Source: Nitrospinaceae bacterium (GTDB taxonomy: Bacteria; Nitrospinota; Nitrospinia; Nitrospinales; Nitrospinaceae). Taken from it: 64,000 nt of DNA. Location: NCBI GenBank assembly GCA_024644405.1, contig JAHELC010000002.1, positions 62,001-126,000 of the forward strand. Direction: 5' to 3'. The notes below the pieces were generated by a model. That model worked only from the letters and a program-made list of their open reading frames with translations. It was not told where the DNA came from and did not search any database. The position numbers and the translations under genes are program-made. The first letter of the stretch is position 1. Each line of letters begins with the position of its first letter. Shown here piece by piece: positions 33,410-37,065 of the stretch.

Positions 33410-34732
33410 TCACGGCTCCATGGGCGGCACATTCCGTCTCCGGTCTCGTTTTTTACGGGTTTTATCACGCTCAAACTCCCGCCAGCGCCGGGGATCTTCC
33501 TTCAGCTGGGGCAAGGTGTCCTCGGCCTCCTCCTCCAGCCACAAATCCTCCAGAACAGAGCCTTTTTTCGCCGATTTCGAGGGCTCTTTCGGCAGGTATT
33601 TGCGGCGCTCCTCAGCCTCTTTCTGGGTCAGGCCCAGTTCCATCTCCAGCAGATCTTTGCCCACCACCCCCTTTTTTTTCTTGGACAGGGCCTCGCCCCG
33701 GAGCTTGATTTCCCTGGCATTGACCAACCCTGATTGCCAAGCCTGCGGGATACCGGACAATCCGTGAACGGCTCCCGCCCAGCAACCGGTCAACGCGCCC
33801 AGCTTGTCCGCCTCGCGACCCAGATTGAGCGTCCCCGTCAACGCTCCCGCAAAATCCGAACCCGCCGTCAACAACCGCACCAGCGCCAGTGGCAGTATCG
33901 TCAGCGTATGCCCCTGCGTCGCGTGTACGATTTTCGTGCCGATATAAGAAGACGCGTTGTCGCTAATCCACGCAGGCAAATTTTCCAAATTCCCTTGCGA
34001 ATACTGGCCCGCCAGACCGCTCAACGTTTTGCTCATCGCTTCCGGATTTTTTTCCGCCAGCGTAAAGCGGTCCGGATAATTTTCGCGATACCATGTTTCA
34101 ACTGTGGCACAAAATTCCGCCGCTTCGTTCAGCAACGTGGCGCCCTCAGGCAATTCCTCTTCATTCAAAAGACGCACGGTGATAAATCCGGTCACTGCCG
34201 CACCCGCGACCTCCCACGGGTGGCGGCTCAACAGCAACGCCGCCTCGATGCAATACTGCATCAACGTTTTGGACGGCCTCTGCTGATACAGAGAAAGCGG
34301 TACGGCCATCGAAAAATAACAGGCATAAGCCGACGCCTGATCTGCCAGCAAAGGCTCGGACCGGTTGGGAAGGTCTTGCACGCTTTTGTAAAAACATCCT
34401 TCAGGACGGCGGAATACGCCAAAATAATTTTCCGGGCCATGGGCGCTCAACCGCACCAGCAGATCGGACAAATCTTCGCTATCCGGTTTTTTGGTTTTCA
34501 ACAGCGAGTCGCATACCGCCAGTGCGCGTTGCGTCTGCACGCCATACAGTCCGGCCATGCGGTATTGCTTGATGCCTTTGCCTATATAGGGCCGCACGTC
34601 GTGGTAGCGGTCGACCTGTTTGAAATACTGCTTCACCGTCTCCGGCTTGAGACCCTTCACCGACTGCCCCAGCGCATCTCCAATCGCCATGCCCATCCAA
34701 CTGCCTATGATTTTGTCCTTCAAATCGCTCAT
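33410..34732 (-). CDS. ADP-ribosylglycohydrolase-fold protein with altered metal site
   Basis: A 440-aa protein whose first 325 residues follow the ARH/DraG fold: MGMAIGDALGQ at 14-23, a helical core, and GREADKLGALTGCWAGA at 305-321. Active family members have TDDT near residue 65 and GGDTDT in the later block to hold two Mg ions. Here these read GVQT (64-67) and GREADK, so most metal ligands are gone. It may bind ADP-ribose or another ligand without cleaving it, or use a different chemistry. The last 90 residues are a charged Lys/Arg/Glu tail. It lies 20 bases after the metallo-hydrolase and is likely cotranscribed with it. Confidence 0.75.
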   Translation of the reverse strand: MSDLKDKIIGSWMGMAIGDALGQSVKGLKPETVKQYFKQVDRYHDVRPYIGKGIKQYRMAGLYGVQTQRALAVCDSLLKTKKPDSEDLSDLLVRLSAHGPENYFGVFRRPEGCFYKSVQDLPNRSEPLLADQASAYACYFSMAVPLSLYQQRPSKTLMQYCIEAALLLSRHPWEVAGAAVTGFITVRLLNEEELPEGATLLNEAAEFCATVETWYRENYPDRFTLAEKNPEAMSKTLSGLAGQYSQGNLENLPAWISDNASSYIGTKIVHATQGHTLTILPLALVRLLTAGSDFAGALTGTLNLGREADKLGALTGCWAGAVHGLSGIPQAWQSGLVNAREIKLRGEALSKKKKGVVGKDLLEMELGLTQKEAEERRKYLPKEPSKSAKKGSVLEDLWLEEEAEDTLPQLKEDPRRWREFERDKTRKKRDRRRNVPPMEP

Positions 34733-34752: not shown

Positions 34753-35523
34753 TTATTCCACCGGGATGAGGACGGAGGGGGTGCTCTGGCGGGCGGGGAA
34801 GAGTGTGGCGGGGTGGTCGCCCAGGACCCGGCGGGCGGAGTCCATCGCGATTTCCGGATGGTTGTTGGATTCGCTCAAGTGCATCAGCACCACGGTTTTC
34901 AGCGCATCGTGTTTCACCTGCGCCAGCAAATCCGCGCAGGCTTCGTTCGACAAATGCCCGACGTCGCTTTGGATCCTCTGCTTGAGCGGCCACGGGTAAT
35001 GCCCGTCCACCAGCATGCGCTCGTCGTGATTCGATTCCACCAAAAGAGTGTCGCAGCCTTTTAATTTTTCTACGATTTGCAGGGTGATTTTTCCGAGGTC
35101 TGTGATATGCCCGAGTTTCTTCGAGCCGCAGCGCACCACGTAGGCCACCGACTCCGCCGCGTCGTGCGGGGTGGCGAACGATTCGACCGTCAAATCCCCC
35201 ACTACGGCTTCGTCTTCCTGCTCGATCGTTCGCCAGTCGACGTCGGGGTGGACATGCCGCCGCATCGCTTCGCGCGTACCGCGCGTGCCATAAACAGGGA
35301 TACCGTGTTTTTTGGTGAGGGCGCCGGCGCCACTGATATGGTCGGAATGTTCGTGGGTGAGGAACAGGGCGGTCACCTCCTGCGGCTCGCGCCGGATGTG
35401 TTCCAGGCGTTTTTTGAGGACGCGCGGTCCGATGCCGATGTCGATCAGGAGGCTCGCCTGTTCGCTTTCGATATAGACGGCGTTGCCCTTACTGCCACTG
35501 GCTAGTACGGAAAATTGAAAAAT
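34753..35523 (-). CDS. WalJ/YycJ-type metallo-beta-lactamase-fold hydrolase, start displaced by apparent frameshift
   Basis: Homology extends well past the first GTG at 35376. The same frame upstream encodes FSVLASGSKGNAVYIESE, the classic N-terminus of this family, and reaches an in-frame stop with no ATG, GTG or TTG before it. Two readings are possible. One is an ATT start at 35523, with AAAGGA 7 bases upstream. The other is an ATG at 35530 in the next frame, joined by loss of one T from the T5 run at 35518-35522; it would give MDYFQFSVLAS. The zinc motif HEHSDH is at 57-62. The family processes nucleic acids or cell-wall signals; WalJ acts with WalK/WalR in Firmicutes. The ARH-like gene follows 20 bases on. 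Confidence 0.8.
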   Translation of the reverse strand: MFQFSVLASGSKGNAVYIESEQASLLIDIGIGPRVLKKRLEHIRREPQEVTALFLTHEHSDHISGAGALTKKHGIPVYGTRGTREAMRRHVHPDVDWRTIEQEDEAVVGDLTVESFATPHDAAESVAYVVRCGSKKLGHITDLGKITLQIVEKLKGCDTLLVESNHDERMLVDGHYPWPLKQRIQSDVGHLSNEACADLLAQVKHDALKTVVLMHLSESNNHPEIAMDSARRVLGDHPATLFPARQSTPSVLIPVE

Positions 35524-35537
35524 AGTCCATTCCTTTC

Positions 35538-35574
35538 TTTGTGTCGCCCTTCGACAGGCTCAGGATGACACAAA
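35538..35574. repeat. Palindromic REP-like element
   Basis: Perfect 8-base arms TTTGTGTC and GACACAAA enclose CCTTCGACAGGCTCAGGAT. That core, or its complement with CCTGAGCCTGTCGAAGG, is a sequence I recognise as recurring in intergenic repeats of many bacteria. It lies between the aldehyde dehydrogenase stop and the metallo-hydrolase start. It could act as a transcript stabiliser or terminator. I find only this copy in the window. Confidence 0.6.
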
Positions 35575-35577
35575 CAA

Positions 35578-37065
35578 TTAATCGTGCTCGATCTGGGCTT
35601 TCTGCAGGGTTCCGCTGTAATCGACGTATACCGATTTCCATTCGGAAAAAATTTCGAGCGCCGCGGTGCCCGCTTCGCGGTGGCCGTTGCCGGTGCCCTT
35701 GGTGCCGCCGAACGGCAGTTGGATTTCCGCGCCGATGGTCGACGCGTTGATGTAGGTGATGCCCGTGTCGAGGGTCTCGATGGCCTTGAAGGCCCGGTTG
35801 ACATCGCGCGTGTAGATGGCCGACGACAGGCCGAACTTCGAATCGTTGACAACCTCCACGGACTGCTCGAACGTGTTGCAGGGGATGATGGCGACCACCG
35901 GCCCGAAGATCTCCTCCTGTGCGATGCGCATTTTGGACGCCACGTCACCGAAAATCGTCGGCTGGTAAAACGATCCGTTTTTGCAGTCCTTGCCTGTTGC
36001 GTACGCACCCCCGGTGAGCAGTTTCGCGCCTTCGTTCTTGCCGATCTGCACGTAGTTGTCCACCTTGGTGCGCTGGCTTTCGTTGATCAGCGGGCCGACA
36101 TCGGTTTTGGGTTTGAGCCCGTCGCCCAGCTTCAGGGTTTTGGCACGTGCGATCAGCATCTCGGTGAATTTTTTCACGATTTTTTTATGCGCGATGACAC
36201 GGCTGCAGGCGGTGCACCGCTGGCCGGTGGTGCCGAACGCGCCGAAGATGACGCCCTCCACCGCCAGGTCCAGGTCGGCGTCGTCCATCACGATAATGGC
36301 GTTCTTGCCGCCCATCTCCAGCGAGTACTGCTTCATATTTTTCGCGCAGGACGCGGCGATCACCGCTCCGGTATCGGTCGACCCGGTGAAGGACACGAGA
36401 TCGACCCTGGGATGTTCCACCATGGGCGCGCCGACTTCGGTGCCGGACCCCTGCACCAGGTTCAACACACCGGGGGGCAGGCCCGCCTGTTCGAAGATCC
36501 TGACGAAGTTGTCCACAGACAGCGGCGTATCGGTCGCCGGTTTGATGACCACCGTGTTGCCGCAGACCAGTGCCGGCACCAGCTTCCACGACGGGATGGC
36601 GATGGGAAAATTCCACGGCGTGATGGCGGAGACAACGCCGACCGGCATGCGTACCGACATGCAGAATTTGTTTTTGAGTTCGGAGGGTACGGTTTCGCCG
36701 AGCAGACGGCGGCCTTCCCCGGCGGTGTAGTAGGTGAGGTCGATGGCTTCCTGAACGTCGCCCCGGGTTTCGCCGATGACCTTGCCCATTTCACGGGTCA
36801 TGTCCTGCGCCAGTTCTTCTTTTTGCTTGAGGAGCAGTTCAGCGACCCGGAACAGGATCTCCCCGCGCTTGGGAGCGGGAGTGGCCCGCCATTTCGGTAA
36901 CGCCTCATCGGCCGCCGCAATGGCTTCGTTCACGTCTTTTTTATTGGATTTCTGGAACCGCCCCAGGACCTCGTTGTGATTGGCGGGGTTTACATTTTCA
37001 AACGTTTTTCCGCTGGACGACGCTTTCCATTTGCCGTTGATATAGTTTTTGAACAGTTTTGCCAT
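35578..37065 (-). CDS. NAD(P)-dependent aldehyde dehydrogenase
   Basis: A 495-aa ALDH-superfamily enzyme oxidising an aldehyde to an acid in the cytoplasm. All catalytic residues are present: Asn152 (TPWNFP), Glu250 (LEMGGKN) and Cys284 (GQRCTAC). The C-terminal part has [16 protein letters not shown] and [17 protein letters not shown]. The sequence looks closest to the group that includes semialdehyde dehydrogenases (succinate, alpha-aminoadipate or 2-oxoglutarate semialdehyde types), but substrate cannot be set from motifs. It has its own good sigma-70 promoter and a 130-base leader. The metallo-hydrolase follows after a REP-like palindrome. Confidence 0.92.

Follow-up and report, generated by a model that had tools for sequence, protein, structure and literature searches.

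Translation of the walJ/yycJ-type gene on the minus strand of the window, which is the whole analysed stretch of 64,000 nucleotides from a Nitrospinaceae bacterium, is well supported by comparison with relatives as beginning at the AUU codon at 35523 (ATT, 35521..35523). The best explanation, which we consider quite probable, is that AUU is a genuine weak start, probably discriminated against by IF3, which keeps a DNA exonuclease scarce. From the ATT the gene occupies 34753..35523 and has 256 codons plus a stop. Around its start the minus-strand frame reads AAG GAA TGG ACT ATT TTT CAA TTT TCC GTA CTA GCC AGT GGC AGT AAG; from stop to stop it extends over 34753..35559, and it contains no ATG, GTG or TTG until the GTG at 35376 (35374..35376, codon 50). 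The conserved FSVLASGSKGN lies upstream of this GTG, and no ATG, GTG or TTG of the frame is able to start the conserved protein.

A Shine-Dalgarno-like AAGGA (35531..35535, minus strand) is located 7 nt upstream of the ATT, at a distance where an AUU, AUC or AUA codon (AUH) is conserved in relatives. The same AAGGA directly abuts, with 0 nt between them, an out-of-frame ATG (35528..35530, minus strand), whose frame reaches a stop after just 13 residues. Because of these distances the ribosome site suits the ATT and not the ATG. The preliminary description of this DNA had placed conserved residues upstream of every in-frame ATG, GTG and TTG, which is correct, coordinates included, the first canonical codon being the GTG of codon 50. 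Its statement that the ribosome site serves either the ATT or the ATG holds for the former and fails for the latter, and the genuine AUU start as in infC that it listed among the possibilities has gained strong support, ATT being kept in 33 of the 57 orthologues from the order, which chance does not explain.

The window protein matches PF12706 (E 2.3e-24) and has a metallo-beta-lactamase fold with a metal motif of the HxHxDH type, THEHSDH at residues 56-62. Over nearly the full length it shows 38-44% identity to the aligned WalJ/YycJ-type rows from Bacillota, among which the named walJ is not fixed by annotation, and it shares its metallo-beta-lactamase-fold family with WalJ/YycJ/VicX of Bacilli (passages of PMC4801191). 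None of the NCBIfam models matched the window protein over the cut-off, and searches of the PDB by sequence and by fold returned general metallo-beta-lactamase-fold relatives only, the best by Foldseek being 1zkp, YhfI, PqqB and RNase Z. In the AlphaFold predictions, which were obtained for the window protein and the named-locus proteins (mean pLDDT 95.4), strand 1 spans residues 2-8, starting at residue 2, thus the ATT start yields the whole predicted fold. Automatic gene callers restricted to ATG, GTG and TTG would begin at the GTG of codon 50, and a start there would truncate the fold by 49 residues, among them the first beta strands of WalJ (strands 2-8, 15-20 and 24-29, and helix 33-42). 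Judged by these predicted features, the gene product is a complete WalJ/YycJ-type metallo-beta-lactamase-fold protein. In this organism it would act as a DNA 5'-3' exonuclease, a role that comes from Bacillus work on B. anthracis YycJ and its link to mismatch repair (cited in PMC4801191), and a B. subtilis walJ mutant was described, in part of PMC9836290, as surviving replication arrest better. The Bacillota genes that we read differ from the present one in having canonical starts, and in Nitrospinota the neighbours are an aldehyde dehydrogenase and an ADP-ribosylglycohydrolase gene, not walRK.

The relatives of the window genome are MAGs filed as Nitrospinota. Searching 77 genomes of the phylum gave a match at E 1e-30 or better in 60, and start codons were read in 57 members of the order and in two outgroup loci (family f6), G031 being left out with a C-terminal fragment only. 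The same-genus set consists of the window and six readable orthologues with 88-91% protein identity (G004 gave no orthologue), and all seven have ATT at the walJ start. Besides the 33 orthologues with ATT, codon 1 is ATA in one, CTG in L026 and GTT in L080, whereas in two genera, represented by six loci, a TTG or GTG stands one codon after the ATT position. These TTG/GTG, CTG and GTT orthologues indicate that AUU is not indispensable. An ATG was found at the homologous start in none of the 57, and in 28 of them the walJ frame is devoid of ATG, GTG and TTG from the upstream stop as far as the core.

Outside Nitrospinota 80 named walJ loci were compared, most of them with a canonical start near the N-terminus, and 70 were scored. 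In 67 of the 70 at least one ATG, GTG or TTG was present in the open stretch; the three others are L173 of Bryobacteraceae and L161, which is filed under Pseudomonadota, the seeds for surveys of Bryobacteraceae and the G079 class, and L181 of candidate division B38. Among 61 Bryobacteraceae genomes 55 had walJ matches, and 30 loci were read. AUC, AUU or AUA was found in 27 of these 30; the remaining three start canonically, L248 with ATG, L256 with TTG and L266 with a GTG two codons upstream, and L248 and L256 are counted as misses. In the G079 class, the nine-genome class of L161, seven of nine genes have ATT, ATC or ATA and one has ATG (canonical start in L271), while L274 is cut by a contig edge; all these start counts are without the wider walJ matches in the phyla of G077, G078 and G079. 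No ATG, GTG or TTG precedes the core in 13 of 26 Bryobacteraceae and five of eight G079-class genes. The counts of open stretches lacking these codons, in all groups together, leave out L248, L256 and L267 as well as L138 and L158, which the motif search missed.

In a FastTree phylogeny of 116 chosen rows, which has many open forks and a weak backbone, the Nitrospinota order forms one clade (support 97), the Bryobacteraceae clade (99) adjoins ATG-using Acidobacteriaceae/Sulfotelmatobacter sequences, and the class of L161, together with L181, is placed elsewhere, among the open forks. Parsimony on this tree required a minimum of eight changes of start class, losses included, with L026 (CTG) unscored and the members of genus g4 scored as AUH by their inferred start. 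Taken at face value, the tree makes it likely that AUH starts of walJ were gained at least three times, in separate clades. Two sequences occupied unexpected positions. L170, filed as Nevskia soli, has an ATG start and sits within the Bryobacteraceae clade, and its label is probably wrong. L136, a WalJ sequence from a MAG that is labelled as a Methanophagales archaeon, clusters with Deltaproteobacteria-type sequences, which would reflect either transfer or contamination.

It is well known that infC starts at AUU, AUC or AUA and is autoregulated by IF3, and we used it as a positive control. Read by eye, its start was ATT in 32, ATA in five and ATC in four of 41 of these genomes, all 41 being of the AUH type, and it was mixed in nine outgroup genomes. 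Between close species the infC start (L103 in the window genome) varies between AUC and AUU, while that of walJ stays AUU. For a wider comparison 0.78 Mb of the 2.98 Mb of the window genome was scanned against 1.6 of the 3.9 Mb of G008, giving 210 orthologue pairs (an earlier run over 0.8 Mb had given 146); this sample is about a quarter of the genome, and the scan would overlook any gene that happens to have a canonical codon upstream. The script flagged 22 of the 210 pairs, of which only walJ and infC truly lacked a canonical start; the other 20, inspected by eye, had a normal ATG, GTG or TTG with chance upstream alignment or were leftover antisense frames. Upstream of the first canonical codon 60 and 41 residues were aligned for walJ, and 9 and 8 for infC. 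Within the 210-pair sample a lineage-wide relaxation of start choice was rejected, since walJ and infC alone remained.

With translation from the AUU at 35523 the walJ product begins with fMet-FQFSVLASGSKGN...; the initiator tRNA mispairs with AUU, and IF3 destabilises initiation complexes of this kind. A good ribosome site combined with an AUU codon should therefore give low, IF3-sensitive synthesis, and an IF3-sensitive output of WalJ is what the AUH reading predicts. The likely purpose would be a scarce DNA 5'-3' exonuclease coupled to the condition of the translation machinery, as with infC, pcnB and Streptomyces sigR. We infer weak initiation and discrimination by IF3 at the walJ AUU; a nuclease that may be harmful when abundant would suit a throttled start. 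Discrimination by IF3 against non-canonical starts was described for infC and shown for sigR (passages of PMC5472188), and in S. aureus AUU and AUA starts gave about 10% of the AUG output, ccpN reaching up to 30% in rich medium (part of PMC13009471).

The AUU could also be the start and yet represent a fixed low-expression setting, the level of IF3 varying too little to regulate walJ. We regard this as possible, if rather doubtful. It would agree with the AUU start of S. aureus cvfC1, for which passages of PMC13009471 give about 10% of AUG expression and no effect of the medium, and with the TTG or GTG that some members of the order have instead; the occurrence of AUH, rather than UUG or GUG, in separate clades would be odd if a low level alone mattered.

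Going beyond the IF3-discriminated weak start, we tentatively propose that walJ is a recurrent recruit to a cross-phylum IF3 regulon. The Nitrospinota, Bryobacteraceae and G079/L181 lineages would each have swapped a normal start for AUU, AUC or AUA, free IF3 (ribosome supply, growth state) gating a repair nuclease, and genus g4 would have re-created an AUH start once its WalJ had acquired an N-terminal extension. If this is true, a DNA-repair nuclease that was repeatedly moved to AUH constitutes a natural replicate experiment on the purpose of such starts. To our knowledge few genes start at AUU or its kin and, infC apart, each of the examples comes from one lineage.

The kind of start is already known from infC, pcnB, sigR, ccpN and cvfC1, to which walJ would be an additional case; a literature search, with subscription journals mostly outside its scope, yielded no recognisable report of a non-canonical start of walJ/yycJ, nor of one in Nitrospina. 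Both infC and walJ are present in these genomes with an AUH start over a wide bacterial range, at normal distance from the ribosome site and with no canonical alternative, but infC is autoregulated, whereas the walJ product is probably a nuclease, and AUH starts of walJ have a patchy distribution, probably with more than one origin. Like walJ, the E. coli pcnB gene, reportedly described with an AUU start by Binns and Masters in 2002, would be a case of a nucleic-acid enzyme limited by its AUU start, although the enzyme is a different one. Streptomyces sigR resembles walJ in that its non-canonical start is conserved within a clade, was misannotated and belongs to the first of a gene pair; it differs in having GTC, encoding a sigma factor and being confined to one genus, and repression by IF3, which is predicted for walJ, was demonstrated experimentally in sigR (passages of PMC5472188). 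The S. aureus cvfC1 (AUU) and ccpN (AUA) starts are likewise conserved, but they have strong ribosome sites and were found by ribosome mapping, with cvfC1 conserved among Staphylococci (part of PMC13009471), whereas walJ has an ordinary ribosome site and its AUH starts occur in several clades.

On the minus strand walJ is preceded by an aldehyde dehydrogenase gene (35578..37065, PF00171) and followed just downstream by an ADP-ribosylglycohydrolase-family gene (33410..34732, PF03747). The latter arrangement is shared by 28 of the 30 loci examined from the order (L009-L038); elsewhere the downstream gene is COX15/CtaA (L173) or adenylosuccinate lyase (L161 and L181). Because the neighbour genes differ between the clades, the AUH trait tracks walJ and not the operon. 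We know of no functional link between WalJ and the ADP-ribosylglycohydrolase. That the AUU is a stoichiometric device, lowering WalJ relative to the ADP-ribosylglycohydrolase encoded downstream on the same message as the GTC of sigR does relative to rsrA, has this frequent pairing and the sigR precedent (part of PMC5472188) in its favour, but appears improbable given that L173, L161 and L181 have AUH walJ genes with other genes downstream.

Where codon 1 is ATH, in 34 orthologues, it is ATT in 33, ATA in one and never ATC (counts from related sequences, which are not independent draws), whereas the internal isoleucine codons of the same 34 genes are 244 ATC, 176 ATT and 78 ATA. In every other column that is mostly isoleucine ATT makes up less than half, and none of these columns is as uniform as codon 1; in the window gene all 14 internal isoleucines are encoded by ATC. 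Mean pairwise nucleotide identity among the seven congeners rises from 0.28 (positions -45 to -22) through 0.50 and 0.57 to 1.0 at the codon, and is 0.94 after it. The comparison shows what is evidently selection on the AUU codon of walJ. In five orthologues (L016, L019, L021, L034 and L091) an in-frame stop lies four codons upstream of codon 1, leaving no room for another start.

These stops, the unconserved upstream sequence and the absence of ATC from codon 1 stand against the view that the ATT is an internal isoleucine codon and translation starts at an unrecognised site further upstream. Some observations do point that way: in the two f6 outgroup loci an ATG precedes the position of codon 1 by 4 to 6 codons, this position is occupied by ATT (Ile) in L094, and WalJ carries an N-terminal extension in genus g4. 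On balance we consider this view very improbable, and for most orthologues it was rejected on the grounds of the upstream stops and the lack of upstream conservation. In g4 (15 members) the extension is conserved upstream and apparently begins at ATC, ATA or ATT after CGGAGAAAAGTT or the like, as judged by eye in 13 of the 15. L082, L089 and L090 of this genus have no ATG, GTG or TTG in the whole open stretch, consequently a non-canonical start is forced; in the other members with such a codon the extension would also start at AUH. The former walJ start is now a leucine codon, TTG or TTA, in g4 (among L078-L097). Use of the TTG/TTA at codon 2 as the g4 start was set aside because the two codons interchange and the upstream extension is conserved. 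L080 (G056), with GTT where others have ATT, has an open stretch with no canonical start, and its start would be either GUU or an AUU two codons upstream.

The ATT overlaps a run of five T (35518..35522, minus strand, part of the codons ATT TTT), and this run, within ATT TTT CAA TTT TCC, is the same in the six other readable congeners. Beyond the genus ATT is found before TTT AAA, and distant orthologues keep it without the T5 run (ATT CTC CAG, ATT TTC CAG and ATT TTA AAG). Neither the joint conservation of run and out-of-frame start nor the variation in run length that would go with a programmed frameshift or a phase-variable T-run was found. That an error, a strain mutation or T-run slippage links the walJ frame to the ATG at 35530 is next to impossible. 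The window does have an ATG one frame off, but the run is identical in seven genus genomes, this ATG, which precedes the ATT by 7 nt, is private to the window (0 of 6 congeners), and AAGGA touches it while standing 7 nt from the ATT. With this the assembly error, strain mutation and slippage considered in the preliminary description drop out; the comparison with close relatives that it proposed came out in favour of the AUU, all six readable congeners sharing ATT and the five-T run, and what it treated as an anomaly of one genome is order-wide and recurrent for walJ.

Immediately before the walJ ribosome site lies a copy of a dispersed palindromic repeat (35538..35572, minus strand), which is present only once in the window but at 13 further places in the same genome; in the six congeners the leader has a different sequence. 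A search of the walJ leader against Rfam returned one sub-threshold match only. In the four congeners L010, L012, L013 and L015 short hairpins, GCGGAG..CTCCGC, end a few bases before AAAGG. The hairpin of L012, GCGGGG..CCCCGC, represents a paired change, and that of the window is different, coming from its repeat. The hairpins preceding the walJ ribosome site are possibly a leader structure.
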